35,178 nucleotides of DNA from Candidatus Poribacteria bacterium (GTDB lineage: Bacteria > Poribacteria > WGA-4E > WGA-3G). Positions 8,734 to 24,683 of this stretch are shown in pieces. The translations under genes and the position numbers were made by a program. The stretch's first letter is position 1. Each line of letters starts with the position of its first letter. Location: contig JAJEAG010000018.1 of NCBI GenBank assembly GCA_022824265.1, positions 1 through 35,178 on the forward strand. Direction: 5' to 3'. Under the pieces are notes generated by a model, which saw only the letters and a list, made by a program, of their open reading frames with translations, searched no databases and had not been told where the DNA came from.

Positions 8734-8792
8734 ATTTCTATCCTTTTCAAGAAGTACTGTCTCTATTTGAATAGGAAAGGAGTAATTGTTTC

Positions 8793-9377
8793 ATGAGCGT
8801 GGATGAGTTGAAAGATGCTGAGGATGCAGAACTGATAATTGCTGTATTAGCAGGTAATCTTAAAGCTTTTGATGAATTAGTCTCTCGCTATCAACGCGCA
8901 ATGCTAACGGTTGCCCAGCAAGTTGTCAAAAACCCAATTGAAGCAGAAGATATCGTTCAAGATGCTTTCCTACTTGCTTTTGAAGCATTACCTCAACTTG
9001 ATAATCTAAATAGATTCGGATCTTGGCTCTATTCAATTACCCGTAATCGCGCACTACGATTCATGAAACGATCCAGCAAATTCCAACTTCATGAGGATGA
9101 AGATGCAGAATTACAAATTGAAGCAGACCCTACTTCAACTGATCCAGCACAGATATTAGTTCAGGAATCTACGCATCAGGCTGTCAGAGAATCAATAAAT
9201 TCATTACCAACTGACTTTCAAGAAGTGATTACGCTATATTATTGGGCAGAGATGCCACAGAAACGAATTGCAGATACTTTGTCTCTACCCATAACGACAG
9301 TAAAATGGAGACTTCACAAAGCAAAAGATTTGCTAAAATCACTATTAGAAAAACGAGGATACGGAGATTTGCTGTAA
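8793..9377 (+). CDS. ECF-type RNA polymerase sigma factor
   Basis: A 194-residue sigma-70-family factor of the extracytoplasmic-function type. Region 2 (about residues 24-92) shows FDELVSRYQRAMLTVAQQVV, EAEDIVQDAFLLAFEALPQ and FGSWLYSITRN. Region 4 (about 130-185) shows INSLPTDFQEVITLYYWAEMPQKRIADTLSLPITTVKWRLHKAKDLL, a helix-turn-helix that reads the -35 element. Regions 1 and 3 are missing, as usual for the class. AAAGGAG sits before the ATG at a suitable distance. No zinc-finger or membrane anti-sigma gene follows; instead the next gene, 136 bases downstream, codes for a soluble DUF4097-like protein, which may be the partner. A palindrome lies upstream. Confidence 0.93.
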   Translation: MSVDELKDAEDAELIIAVLAGNLKAFDELVSRYQRAMLTVAQQVVKNPIEAEDIVQDAFLLAFEALPQLDNLNRFGSWLYSITRNRALRFMKRSSKFQLHEDEDAELQIEADPTSTDPAQILVQESTHQAVRESINSLPTDFQEVITLYYWAEMPQKRIADTLSLPITTVKWRLHKAKDLLKSLLEKRGYGDLL

Positions 9378-9420
9378 ATCAAGTTCTCATATTCCTGTTA
9401 GATTCGGTTTTCAAACCAAT

Positions 9421-9444
9421 GCAAAATATAAATGCATATTTTGC
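9421..9444. promoter_or_regulatory. Palindrome between sigma factor gene and DUF4097 gene
   Basis: GCAAAATAT (9421-9429), AAATGC, ATATTTTGC (9436-9444): perfect 9-base arms. It lies 44 bases after the sigma stop and 70 before the next start. No T-run follows; it could be an operator, an RNA-processing hairpin or a weak terminator. Confidence 0.35.
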
Positions 9445-9513
9445 TATAAGTCCAAAGTTCAGATTTATCAAACTCACGTTATATTAAAAATAGCATTTAC
9501 GAAGAGGTTTCTC

Positions 9514-10902
9514 ATGGAACAGGAACGACATCAAGAAATTCGCGGACTCTTTCAGATACTCGAACAAACTTCAAAAATCGCAGAAGACTCAATATTGACA
9601 GAAAACTATAAAGACAGTGAAAGTCGATGCATTTCTCAATTTAATAAAGTTTTGCATCGACTGAATGAGATCAATACTGTCCCTGAAGGTCTTTTCGATC
9701 CATTGGAAGAAAATGCCACTTTTAGTGAAATTAGTATAGCATGCAATCACCTTGCAGCTTACCTTAGCGAGGGGTTGGGAATAACATCAGATTTGAAGTC
9801 CATGATGACAAATATTCTTGGTAAAAACATTATTGATACTATAAATGAAGAGTTTAAAGAGAGTGGAATTGGTGAATTAATTCGTAGTGCAATGCCTGAT
9901 TTCTTGACTGAGACTGTCTTAGATGACATCAATAGGTCTTTCAAAGCATCGTCAGATGGTTCCTTATTACTTGACACAGACTTAGGAAATATTTATGTAC
10001 AAGGAGCAGATACTGAAGATGTAAATGTAGTAGTCCACCGCGCAGCACAGATGAAGACAGATAGACATGCTGCTGAATTCATCAAAGCCTTTAACGTTAA
10101 CTTTAACCAAGAGGATACAGAACTTCACATTGAGGCAAAGTTTAGTGATGGAAAACGATACTGGACAATAGCAAATATTCGTTTGGATATTCTTTTTTTC
10201 ATTACAGTTCCAAAAACCTTTCGCAGTATCGTTGTAAAATCTGCTGGAGGAGATGTCACTGTACAGAACTTAAACGGATCTATTCAATGCCGAACTAATA
10301 GTGGACAACTTAACTTTGAAAATATAGCAGGACCTATTTTGGGTCATACAGACAATGGTAATATCAGGTTAACAAAGTGTGATGGAGATGTCCGTGTTGA
10401 TACGTTACGCGGAAACATTGAAATAAACGATATTGTAGGTCGGGTTAACACAACATCATTTGGCGGTAATATTCGCGCTAACAATGTTATCGGTGCAATC
10501 ACAACCGAAACATCTGGTGGAAACATCAAAATTGAGAACTGTAAAGGTGGTGTAACCGCTGAAACTGCCGGTGGTAGTATAGACTTGGAAAATGATGGAC
10601 CAATCACTGCAAAGACTTTTGGTGGTTCCATTAATGCAGATATAACTGGACAACTGCAAGAGGATTCAATCCTTGAGTCACCTGGCGGTGACATCACTGT
10701 CTCTATGTTATCTGACATTCTTGTTAAAATAGATGCGAAATGTAATGGGGGTGAGGTAACATCAGAACTTCCTGTGGAATTATTTGACAAAGATTTCGAG
10801 TCTACTTGGCAAATACAAGGGATTATTAATGGTGATGGACCACTTCTTAAACTTCGCAGTATAGGTGGAGATATTAATCTAAAGTCTTTGAATGAATCAT
10901 GA
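9514..10902 (+). CDS. Soluble protein with helical N-terminus and DUF4097-like beta-solenoid
   Basis: 462 residues. Residues 1-150 are mostly helical and of no family I recognise. Residues 155-460 form a DUF4097/adhesin-like repeat region, with turns such as SAGGDVTVQNLNGSI, SFGGNIRANNVIGAIT, TSGGNIKIENCKGGVT and TAGGSIDLENDG about every 19-22 residues, and a closing GDGPLLKLRSIGGDINL. There is no signal peptide or membrane segment, so it is predicted cytoplasmic, unlike many DUF4097 proteins. An ATG with GAGG upstream is used. It lies behind an ECF sigma factor, the place where an anti-sigma factor is expected, so a role in controlling that sigma factor is plausible but not shown. The Omp85 fusion at 20863-24645 has a similar region. 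Confidence 0.75.
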   Translation: MEQERHQEIRGLFQILEQTSKIAEDSILTENYKDSESRCISQFNKVLHRLNEINTVPEGLFDPLEENATFSEISIACNHLAAYLSEGLGITSDLKSMMTNILGKNIIDTINEEFKESGIGELIRSAMPDFLTETVLDDINRSFKASSDGSLLLDTDLGNIYVQGADTEDVNVVVHRAAQMKTDRHAAEFIKAFNVNFNQEDTELHIEAKFSDGKRYWTIANIRLDILFFITVPKTFRSIVVKSAGGDVTVQNLNGSIQCRTNSGQLNFENIAGPILGHTDNGNIRLTKCDGDVRVDTLRGNIEINDIVGRVNTTSFGGNIRANNVIGAITTETSGGNIKIENCKGGVTAETAGGSIDLENDGPITAKTFGGSINADITGQLQEDSILESPGGDITVSMLSDILVKIDAKCNGGEVTSELPVELFDKDFESTWQIQGIINGDGPLLKLRSIGGDINLKSLNES

Positions 10903-20862: not shown

Positions 20863-23800
20863 TCAGAACATCCGTTCCAAACGCCAGAATAGTTTAGGTT
20901 TACGTAACGTAGAATCACTGGTAATAGGGATGGAAAAGTCAAACACATTAGTAATTGGATATGGACTACCCAATGGGCTGACATAAATTGTAAAACCGAT
21001 CCCAACAGATGATTTTATCTCATTGAATGTAAAGTCAGCATAGATATTATCATCATACTCCCAAATCCGTCCAATATCCATAAAAGTACTTAGAGCCCAT
21101 CCGATATAAGCATCTGTTCCTGTGTCAATTTGGATTTCATCTGCAATTCGATGTTCTACATTGAGCATTATTCTGCTATCTCCAGCAAATGAGTTGAAAC
21201 TGTATCCACGTAGAGATTTTGATCCACCAAGGTAGAGTAGTCTTTGTCTGGGTAATGGTGCATCAGCGAAATCACCAACTATACGTAAATTTAGGTTGTG
21301 TAGTCCAATCAACGGATTATACCGCGCCAACTCAAAATTGTAGACATTATATGTAAGATCTCCACCAAGAAATCTACCAGCTATTTCAACACCGAAATTG
21401 CCTCTCCAACCACGACGTGTTCGTTCATTTGGTCTCAAGATCATTTGGCTTGCCAGATTTTCAGCACTATCAAGGCGCGATTTATGATCTCTCGTATCAA
21501 AAGTATATCTAAAGGAAATCATTCTAAGTGATCCAGTATCAATCCGAGGATTACCGAGTTTTATCAGACTGCTTTGTAAATAACTCCAGTTCGTGGATTT
21601 AAACAAATTAGAATGGTTATCAAGTGTATATTCAAGACGTAGCTGTGAGTATTGTCCAAACTTATTTGCTATCCAAAAATGTTGACCTTGACGTTGAAAG
21701 TAATTATCAGCAGAAGTACCGTAAAATGAATCACTTAAACTTATTTCAGCAGGTCGTAGACGTAAGTCACCAAAACTATAATCAGTCAGTTTGAATAATC
21801 CGACACCTAAAGTCAATGGAATACGTCTAAAGAAACTATTTTCAACTCCAACATGATAATTCAATATTTTACTTGAGACACCAATGCTTACAGAACCAAA
21901 TAATTTTTCAGAATTAATATATCGGGTGTTGAGTGTTCCACCTGCTCCAAGTGCCACACCATGAACCCGGTTGTAACCAACTATGGGGAACCAACCCGGT
22001 TTAATCAGTGATCGTTCTTGAATTTCAACAATCAGTATGTTTTTTCCACCTTCGCTTTGCACCTGCCAATCACCTACCGATTTGAATAGGTCATTGGTGT
22101 TGCTTAATTTTTTGTGCAAATTATTGACTTTTGCTTGTCCAAGTGAATGGAAATACACACCATCTGTATCTATATCAAGTGCAGAAATGAGTTCTGCACG
22201 CGAGATTTTCCTATTACCAGTAAAACGTATCTCATTTAAATAACCCTCACTTATGTTATACTGTAATACATCGTTAGAAATTCCATGGGTAACATCTGCA
22301 AAAGGAAAACCGCGGTTGAGATAAAAGTCGTTAATCATCCACTGTTTCAACTTTATACTCGCGACAGAAGTATATCCAGGCAATATATCATACCAATCTT
22401 TTATGAATTTGTTAGGAAAACTCTTATTTCCGTTGATTGATACCAGTCTTACAAAATCCACAGGTGTTTCTTTAATACTGATTTGCAAGATAACCCTCAA
22501 TGGATCGATATTTGAATTATTCTCTGATAAAGCACTTCCTACAACCTTAATATTAACTGGATTTTTCGATTTTTCTACTGGATCGACAGATTGACGGTTG
22601 AGTTCTTTTGTCTCCATAATCACTGTCTTTAACTGAACTTCCTGAAACAAATCACTGTTTTCTAATTCAATAAAAACACGAGAAAGTTGTTCATTTGTAA
22701 TTGTATTCCCAACCACAATTGGTATCTTTTTTAGCAATTCTTCAGTTGGAATATTCTTATTTCCATCTATTTCAACCGAATCAACTATGAACTTTTCTGA
22801 CACCTGATATGATGCGGGGGAATCTGCTTGTTTTTGAACTAACCTTAATTTCCCCATACCCTCTTTCCAATGGGGCCACCACGGATATTTCTCATCATAT
22901 ATCGGTAACCAATAACTATACTCTCGTTGTACAACTGGGTGCAATTCGTCTCCATTTATATGCTTAACTTGTGATTTTCGGTGAACGTTGAATAACCATG
23001 TTTCAGTACCGCTTTTTTCCTTTGATTCCCGAGGTATAGCAACTTCTAAACTCCAGTAATTAGCCGTTATTTTAGTTGCAACAACTGCGTTCGAATCCCA
23101 TGAACTGTTCCCTATAAAACGTACTACTGACTCATCGACTTTTTCTCGCTTTACATCAGGTGGAGCAAATCTGAAATTCGGGAAACCTTCTTTATTTACT
23201 CGTTGGTCGAACATTCCGCCAATTGGGTTAATTATTAGGTGTGAATAGTTGAAGGATTCTGGAGTCATATCAAGTAGAATCTCAACTGACTCATCCTCCC
23301 AAATAGGCGAATCATGTTGTGTCTGTGATATCCTTGGTATTTGCTTTTCTTGTATATGTGCTCTTACACCAATGTATAAATAGCGGTTATCCCACAATAA
23401 ATAAACATCAGTTGGATTTTTTGATGTTTTAGTTCCCATAGGATTCTGAAAATCATGGAGTGCTGTTGCATCTAACCACGCTGTTTCAGATAAATTACCG
23501 TCAATTGCGGGTGGAATTGGAGTATGATAAATTGGTTGTACATATTCAATAGCTGCTTCGTCTTGGGAACTATTGTTCTTCGTATTTTCAGAGAGACTTC
23601 GTAATTTTGTGTTTTGTAGGATGGAAATAGTACCAGAAGAGGACATTTCCAATAAGGGACCACCACCATTTATAGCAATTGTGTTATTGTCCATTTCAGA
23701 AGGTAAGTTTAGGATATAATGTTGTTTGTCATTTTTGAATTTTATATCAGCTGGATAGTCTTCGGGTAGAAGTAAACTTATATTACCTCCAATTGCTGTT

Positions 23801-24645
23801 ATTTCAAGTTGTGCTGCCAGCGCATCAAGTATTGATATATCAATTGAACCGTTGTCAGTCTTAATGTGATTTTCACCAGGAATCATCAATATTGACCCGT
23901 GAATACGACCTTTCTTGACTTCTACATTATAGTTTCCTATTGTCTCATCTAAATGTACGTTACCTATATCATTTAGGATTACTACCTTACCGCGAATACG
24001 ATGTATATATACATTACCATTCTTTACATTTAGTTTAACTGAGATATCTGGAGGAGTTTTTATTTCGTAGTCCAATTGGAGATGTTGTGTTACATCAGTT
24101 GATTTTTGTTCTTCTAATATCACATTTGAATAATCATCTGGTATTTGAGTAGTTAATTGAAGTATACCGTCAGTATTTTTCCCAGTTATAGATACGTCTT
24201 TTAGAAAAGTATCTGTAAAGATGTCAAGATTATCCCGCACACGTTTTTCAAGTGTTACAGTAATTTTCTCATCGTTTTTTGCATTATTGTCTATCGCGAC
24301 GATTCTAATGTTTCCGGGGATATCTGTTATTAATTCTACCTGTAAGACATCATGATAATTAAAATGCTGGGAGGAGGTAGGGATGGAGTTTTGTGTTTGG
24401 TCTATTCCCGTTTGTGGCTTTAAAAACCTTCTTAATTTAGCATCTTCCGATTGATCCTCAAACGCAAAAACTATGTTTGGAAATAGAACTATGACAAACA
24501 ACACTAAATATATTGACAATTGACAATGACTCAACTTGACAACAGCTCTAATGAAATAAATCAGATAGGTAATTGCAAATGATGGTGAAACTGCAATTTT
24601 TAATGAACTGTTATTTTTTTTCATCATTTCAGTTGCAGACAACAT
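20863..24645 (-). CDS. Omp85-family outer-membrane protein fused to DUF4097-like and CBM9-like regions
   Basis: 1260 residues. In order: a signal peptide (about 43-62, unusually far from the N-terminus); a DUF4097-like beta-repeat region (about 95-350; NGNVYIHRIRGKV, GRIHGSI, NGSIDISIL, GGNISLLLP, and a GGGPLLEMSSSGTISI close); a carbohydrate-binding family 9-like domain (about 365-605; IPPAIDGNLSETAWLDA, VYLLWDNRYLYIGVRA, WEDESVEILLD, WSLEVAIP); POTRA-like repeats (about 617-870; DSVEIDGNKNIPTEELL, NEIRFTGNRKISRAEL); and a barrel to the end with GGSKSLRGYSF, the L6 motif of Omp85 proteins, and terminal Phe. The ATG at 24645 has GAGG 7 bases upstream. Omp85 proteins insert or transport proteins through the outer membrane; the extra domains suggest a surface-glycan-linked version. 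Confidence 0.88.
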   Translation of the reverse strand: MLSATEMMKKNNSSLKIAVSPSFAITYLIYFIRAVVKLSHCQLSIYLVLFVIVLFPNIVFAFEDQSEDAKLRRFLKPQTGIDQTQNSIPTSSQHFNYHDVLQVELITDIPGNIRIVAIDNNAKNDEKITVTLEKRVRDNLDIFTDTFLKDVSITGKNTDGILQLTTQIPDDYSNVILEEQKSTDVTQHLQLDYEIKTPPDISVKLNVKNGNVYIHRIRGKVVILNDIGNVHLDETIGNYNVEVKKGRIHGSILMIPGENHIKTDNGSIDISILDALAAQLEITAIGGNISLLLPEDYPADIKFKNDKQHYILNLPSEMDNNTIAINGGGPLLEMSSSGTISILQNTKLRSLSENTKNNSSQDEAAIEYVQPIYHTPIPPAIDGNLSETAWLDATALHDFQNPMGTKTSKNPTDVYLLWDNRYLYIGVRAHIQEKQIPRISQTQHDSPIWEDESVEILLDMTPESFNYSHLIINPIGGMFDQRVNKEGFPNFRFAPPDVKREKVDESVVRFIGNSSWDSNAVVATKITANYWSLEVAIPRESKEKSGTETWLFNVHRKSQVKHINGDELHPVVQREYSYWLPIYDEKYPWWPHWKEGMGKLRLVQKQADSPASYQVSEKFIVDSVEIDGNKNIPTEELLKKIPIVVGNTITNEQLSRVFIELENSDLFQEVQLKTVIMETKELNRQSVDPVEKSKNPVNIKVVGSALSENNSNIDPLRVILQISIKETPVDFVRLVSINGNKSFPNKFIKDWYDILPGYTSVASIKLKQWMINDFYLNRGFPFADVTHGISNDVLQYNISEGYLNEIRFTGNRKISRAELISALDIDTDGVYFHSLGQAKVNNLHKKLSNTNDLFKSVGDWQVQSEGGKNILIVEIQERSLIKPGWFPIVGYNRVHGVALGAGGTLNTRYINSEKLFGSVSIGVSSKILNYHVGVENSFFRRIPLTLGVGLFKLTDYSFGDLRLRPAEISLSDSFYGTSADNYFQRQGQHFWIANKFGQYSQLRLEYTLDNHSNLFKSTNWSYLQSSLIKLGNPRIDTGSLRMISFRYTFDTRDHKSRLDSAENLASQMILRPNERTRRGWRGNFGVEIAGRFLGGDLTYNVYNFELARYNPLIGLHNLNLRIVGDFADAPLPRQRLLYLGGSKSLRGYSFNSFAGDSRIMLNVEHRIADEIQIDTGTDAYIGWALSTFMDIGRIWEYDDNIYADFTFNEIKSSVGIGFTIYVSPLGSPYPITNVFDFSIPITSDSTLRKPKLFWRLERMF

Positions 24646-24683
24646 CAAAATACCTCACTAATTCATACTGAAAGAAAATAGAC

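Follow-up and report, generated by a model that had tools for sequence, protein, structure and literature searches.

The window analysed here comprises the 35,178 nucleotides of contig JAJEAG010000018.1, read on its forward strand, from a Candidatus Poribacteria genome (GCA_022824265.1; 4.45 Mb in 100 contigs, 96.7% completeness). It carries the gene of an extracytoplasmic function (ECF) sigma factor, P0001, followed on the same strand by the gene of a soluble partner protein, P0002, in which a helical N-terminal domain (ND) is joined by a linker to a DUF4097/Toastrack beta-solenoid. P0001 (194 aa, 8793-9377, + strand) matches Sigma70_r2 (E 3.5e-16, 59 bits) and Sigma70_r4_2 (E 2.2e-10, 40.5 bits) in Pfam, both above the cut-off, and displays the composition of an ECF sigma factor, namely regions 2 and 4 only in about 190 aa. 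Models of SigW are among its top matches in NCBIfam, although below their cut-off. An orthologue of P0001 likewise lies 5' of the partner gene in related genomes.

P0002 (462 aa, 9514-10902, +) lacks any recognisable membrane segment. Its residues 158-456 (9985-10881, +) match PF13349, the DUF4097 or "Toastrack" family, with E 2.7e-12 and 47 bits against a gathering cut-off of 22.9. The first 136 residues (9514-9921, +) form ND, an undescribed helical domain with homologues both standing alone and linked to sigma genes. AlphaFold2 (AF2) predicts a helical bundle for residues 1-88, mostly with a predicted local distance difference test (pLDDT) above 90; the helices 2-29, 36-52 and 70-87 are of high confidence and are followed by a flexible stretch. 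Beyond it, the alignment reveals a short conserved helix, GELIRSAMPDFL (residues 120-131; 9871-9906, +), which is a candidate contact to the sigma factor. The helical N-terminus and the beta-solenoid described by the initial annotation of this locus are thereby borne out.

The same annotation had noted that the gene after the sigma factor encodes no zinc finger, membrane segment or signal peptide, and our motif and hydropathy checks agree. The HxxxCxxC zinc motif is absent from P0002, from all 30 proteins checked in the window's family and from the seven ND proteins checked outside it. The maximal mean hydropathy over 19 residues of P0002 is 1.22, therefore neither a membrane segment nor a hydrophobic signal stretch is present by that measure, and the 30 family proteins (P0002 included) are equally devoid of hydrophobic segments. 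A Pfam scan of P0002 found no SHOCT-like or PspC part, and its scores against the NCBIfam equivalogs LiaG (31.8 bits, cut-off 285) and LiaX (26.5 bits, cut-off 350) are far too low for an assignment. DUF4097 proteins were noted there to be usually membrane-bound or secreted, but a cytoplasmic one is not unusual in itself: passages in Ravi et al. 2024 (PMC11237479) predict an intracellular location for Toastrack and refer to operons in which a sigma factor is linked to it.

The sigma gene and the partner gene are separated by 136 nt (9378-9513, +), in which only a ribosome-binding site is conserved. Promoter-like sites in this region number 14, against 11.3 +/- 3.0 expected by chance, and in alignments of the corresponding intergenic regions of relatives the ribosome-binding site is the sole conserved block. 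The alignments thus give no sign of a separate promoter between the two genes, which the initial annotation had regarded as a sign that they are not linked.

Within the window's family (f1), the sigma gene lies directly 5' of the ND-Toastrack gene and on the same strand in all 55 genomes examined (55 of 58, in sets of 30, 10 and 15), so that the sigma/DUF4097 pair proposed for a conserved-neighbourhood search is indeed conserved. Since no independent promoter was found either, both observations named in advance as speaking against the pair failed to appear. Synteny inside the family proves little by itself because an EamA-like gene upstream is conserved there too (29 of 30 loci). Outside the family, ND is not fused to Toastrack, and an orthologous sigma gene lies directly upstream in ten of 11 ND loci from seven genomes, the exception (L104) being a weak match. 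In these ten loci the two reading frames either overlap or are separated by no more than 14 nt, and the genes that flank the pair in the window (EamA-like, solute-binding protein) were not found. As adjacency is retained while the flanks are gone, we regard these loci as the stronger evidence for linkage. In two of the 55 family genomes (L107 and L120, from G067 and G020), a partial extra copy of ND is located between the sigma and ND-Toastrack genes.

A whole-protein search revealed that ND, as the first 95-135 residues of P0002, also occurs without the solenoid, and a profile search detected ND in 65 of 84 genomes of the phylum. Among 21 genomes from other families, three contain the sigma orthologue (E <= 1e-30). 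Two of them also have ND, and in the third (G052) the contig ends where the gene after sigma would be. Of the 19 genomes without ND that were searched, 18 lack the orthologue at this threshold, and in the remaining one it is cut by a contig end. This co-occurrence, together with the linkage outside the family, indicates that the two travel together. Judged from gene neighbourhoods, the constant partner of the sigma factor is ND and not the solenoid, which is not beside the sigma gene outside the family, and Toastrack is most simply explained as a later fusion onto ND. The suggestion that a solenoid with a helical domain forms a new kind of partner thus stands in so far as the pair is real, conserved and distinct from the classical zinc or membrane anti-sigma factors, but its constant part is ND alone. 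All 80 loci retained from a search of public genome contigs belong to Candidatus Poribacteria, which does not demonstrate absence elsewhere because the search patterns were derived from family-like sequences. A third type of ND protein is encoded in genome G019 (L059, 4309-5067, -); membrane segments are predicted C-terminal to its ND, and the stretch covered contains no sigma gene.

The region upstream of the sigma gene contains a predicted ECF promoter (8738-8765, +), consisting of a -35-like CTATCC (8738-8743), a 15-nt spacer and a -10-like GTCTCTA (8759-8765), 27 nt 5' of the sigma ATG. It is an exact match to the block CTATCC-(TTTT)-GTCTCTA with a spacer of 14-15 nt that is conserved in the alignment of upstream regions. 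The block was found in 42 of 45 loci of the family; it is clear in four and degenerate in six of the ten loci outside, with a pattern that was widened after inspection. The sigma operon is therefore predicted to be autoregulated. We infer that this sigma factor reads the motif, because the motif precedes the sigma gene and both co-occur.

In the 18 genomes of the window's genus, a pattern using CTATCC only gave 47 matches against 12 for the reversed pattern, several of them inside genes, and we relied instead on two narrower patterns, CTATCYTTN{12,13}GTMTCTA (39 matches against one) and the GACTCTA form (51 against none). A promoter matrix was trained without nine loci (L023, L033, L039, L041, L063, L066, L102, L103 and L105) and thus describes the commoner form of the motif; it is circular for the sigma gene, though not for pspA, the second ND gene or other targets. 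Among 543 other open reading frames (ORFs), 37 reach a score of 12.5, and 36 of these are ND genes. None of the 19 ECF paralogues of the source genome that were scored (of 40 other ECF matches) attains 12.5, the maximum being 7.4. That genome contains 41 ECF sigma matches in its 4.45 Mb, many of them in open frames 900-1050 aa long, which gives the impression of a sigma factor fused to a large extra domain.

The distribution of the motif outlines a putative regulon. An unlinked second ND gene (ND2) has the exact motif just 5' in all 18 genomes of the genus, and 40 of 41 standalone ND loci score at least 12.5. A DUF4097 gene follows ND in 17 of these 41, so that ND and Toastrack are associated there a second time, unfused. 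The pspA gene is preceded by the motif with a score of at least 14 in 15 of 16 genomes of the genus, including the source genome, and has the motif in 12 of 15 genomes of the sister genus, against none of 15 genomes that lack an orthologue of the sigma gene; the two scans behind the counts outside the window's genus differ slightly (spacers of 14-15 nt within 260 nt, and of 13-15 nt within 300 nt). The arrangement typical of a PSP (phage shock protein) or SigW-type system, pspA behind the sigma factor's own promoter, would accordingly be present in both genera. The motif also lies ahead of a GrpE/HSP70 operon in two genomes and ahead of a 95-aa membrane protein preceding a dehydrogenase in ten, with the same location in two more. 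A lipoprotein pair, present in six of 39 genomes, scores at least 14 in four. Pfam domains of the targets comprise PspA_IM30, bPH_3, YqiJ_N, Band_7/Flot, GrpE and HSP70. In one genome (L264; G014:C139), the motif is situated 87 nt 5' of an ORF that by eye resembles a reverse transcriptase and is followed by a Cas1-like ORF.

The affiliation of ND was sought by sequence and by structure. Pfam returned nothing above cut-off for ND in the nine ND-bearing stretches scanned, so that no known family was found for it there, and an ND profile yielded a single match among PDB sequences, a hydrolase with E 1.4. The best structural match is the mycobacterial proteasome activator Bpa (Z 9.8, root-mean-square deviation 3.0, 89 residues), a Z inside the helical-bundle background and without a sequence match, hence homology to Bpa is rejected and the match kept as a lead. 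The class I anti-sigma domain (ASDI) is described as a three-helix bundle, a flexible linker and a fourth helix (passage in PMC7406223). In the AF2 model of ND, three helices predicted with confidence are followed by a linker of low confidence and, beyond it, by the short conserved helix. In this ND resembles ASDI, a likeness of layout and not membership; the fold search returned generic helical bundles. The Hx3Cx2C zinc motif, which occurs in about half of ASDI and is not obligatory, is missing from ND.

A joint structure prediction of the sigma factor and the N-terminal domain, as suggested in the initial annotation, was run on the pair of a relative as a read-through of sigma, gap and ND. 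The GELIRSAMPDFL helix reaches a pLDDT of 67-75 in this model, compared with about 46-49 in ND alone. As different sequences underlie the two models, this rise counts as weak evidence. A fold search with the joint model returned sigma factors only.

We consider it probable, with some reserve, that the pair constitutes a PSP/SigW-like switch responding to envelope stress, in which ND inhibits the sigma factor and Toastrack provides the input. The sigma factor and its cytoplasmic partner would be expressed from one autoregulated operon, and ND would most likely bind the sigma factor and keep it inactive in the manner of an anti-sigma domain, whereas the fused Toastrack may report a disturbance of the membrane or envelope. 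Freed sigma factor would then activate its own operon, ND2 and pspA with its ATP-binding cassette transporter, and in some genomes also the PH-domain/YqiJ/flotillin operon, GrpE/DnaK and small membrane proteins. The outcome would be a membrane-protection response similar to those of PSP and SigW, after which ND and ND2 would restore inhibition by negative feedback. The gene linkage, the constancy of ND as partner and the promoter motif shared with the targets are read directly from the genomes; that ND physically binds the sigma factor, that its control is inhibitory and that Toastrack acts as the sensor we infer. The likely envelope-stress function was not part of the initial annotation, whose interpretation is partly supported, and is added here from the promoter evidence.

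Several observations weigh against this interpretation. The motif is missing ahead of two sigma genes of genus g3, ahead of pspA in that genus (0 of 2) and at all four pspA loci of three sigma-bearing genomes outside the family, and it precedes the bPH/YqiJ/flotillin operon in only seven of 16 genomes (score at least 13.9; source genome included). None of the anti-sigma families tested resembles ND in sequence, and the structures that match its fold best, Bpa among them, are ordinary helical bundles inside the helical background. The joint model has a predicted template modelling score of 0.39 and no confident docking, therefore no docking is claimed. In two genomes (L218, G005:C28; L220, G004:C95), the exact motif is found 113-167 nt 5' of a gene that by eye encodes a different ECF sigma factor, for which a sigma cascade is a possible explanation.

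ND and Toastrack could also be effectors rather than regulators. ND-Toastrack would then act against envelope stress and be co-transcribed with a sigma factor whose own control is transcriptional or lies with an unlinked protein. Effectors would be expected to share the promoter motif of pspA, as ND2 and, in 17 of the 41 standalone loci, the downstream DUF4097 gene do, and AF2 gave no docking of sigma and ND. We nevertheless hold this to be unlikely, though still worth considering, as sigma and ND co-occur and as their genes overlap, or come close to doing so, in ten of ten linked loci outside the family, without Toastrack or common flanks, which is the classic layout of a sigma factor and its regulator. 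Alternatively, ND may serve as a positive co-factor or scaffold that recruits the sigma factor to RNA polymerase or the membrane, Toastrack being the membrane/PSP dock. An autoregulated positive loop would equally conserve the pair, and a passage of PMC11237479 proposes that complexes beneath the membrane are assembled by Toastrack. A second ND copy in the regulon, however, fits negative feedback more simply. We know of no precedent for such a co-factor among ECF sigma factors, and regard the idea as improbable. Neighbourhood by chance or general synteny, to which the conserved EamA-like gene of the family might point, is extremely improbable given the retention of adjacency without the flanks and the presence of the sigma factor's motif at unlinked ND genes.

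If ND inhibits the sigma factor, it may represent a new class of soluble anti-sigma domains unrelated to those described, and the Toastrack fusion in the window's family may allow PSP-type membrane surveillance to gate a cytoplasmic ECF sigma factor directly, with no need for zinc, a two-component system or proteolysis across the membrane; we advance this tentatively and with more doubt than conviction. Four things appear to be new: the family of ND domains, the constant association of this family with a single ECF lineage, the fusion to Toastrack and the promoter evidence linking the pair to pspA. In the CC-licensed PMC papers covered, a scope that leaves out the main ECF classification, no combination of DUF4097/Toastrack with such an ECF partner domain was found beyond the remark on linked sigma factors in PMC11237479. 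How Toastrack proteins relay envelope stress to transcription is inferred in the PSP review from gene neighbourhoods only. P0002 joins Toastrack and a conserved sigma-partner domain in one protein, and its predicted regulon includes pspA, which makes the question of the relay testable with two genes and one promoter. An undescribed domain family with a readable promoter code moreover renders the stress regulon of uncultured bacteria mappable from sequence.

Among known systems, sigmaW of Bacillus subtilis is autoregulated, includes PH-domain genes in its regulon and is held by RsiW, a membrane-bound anti-sigma factor of the zinc type. It also controls pspA and flotillins (passage in PMC8144471). 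The poribacterial pair resembles it in an ECF sigma factor of comparable sequence, a regulon predicted to include pspA, flotillin and PH-domain genes, and predicted autoregulation, but differs in its soluble partner, which lacks a zinc motif and membrane helix and bears Toastrack, and in its CTATCC/GTCTCTA promoter.

Toastrack is a known partner domain of PSP, and in systems such as LiaG, LiaX/YvlB and the DUF2089-Toastrack operons it is likewise coupled to transcriptional control of a PSP-type response (passages in PMC11237479). P0002 differs from these in the fusion of Toastrack to ND and in the pairing with an ECF sigma factor. DUF2089-Toastrack clusters do occur in related Poribacteria: two loci of genus g7 (L067 and L068, compared by gene layout, with Pfam run on L067 only), from Poribacteria lacking the sigma-ND pair, carry the gene of a DUF2089 regulator and, after it, three genes for proteins of the DUF4097 type, of which two have SHOCT-like N-termini, and thus reproduce the context described in the PSP review. 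The window itself encodes a 1261-aa outer-membrane protein with CBM9_1, POTRA and Omp85 domains (20863-24648, -), whose residues 80-330 by eye resemble a further Toastrack-type solenoid; comparable long ORFs in relatives give weak matches to DUF4097.

Soluble partners are known from other ECF sigma factors. ChrR, the partner of RpoE in Rhodobacter sphaeroides, similarly combines an N-terminal helical domain with a C-terminal beta sensor domain (passage in PMC8999054). ChrR, however, uses a zinc-binding anti-sigma domain and a cupin, whereas ND has neither HxxxCxxC nor any similarity found, and the C-terminal domain of P0002 is Toastrack. SigX of Pseudomonas aeruginosa (ECF102) is also an ECF sigma factor of membrane stress, and its partner CfrX is a small, soluble, putative anti-sigma factor (PMC8999054, in part); CfrX is likened to ND by description only and, unlike P0002, the system has no Toastrack. 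By analogy, we take ChrR and SigX/CfrX as working analogues of the ND-Toastrack/sigma pair.
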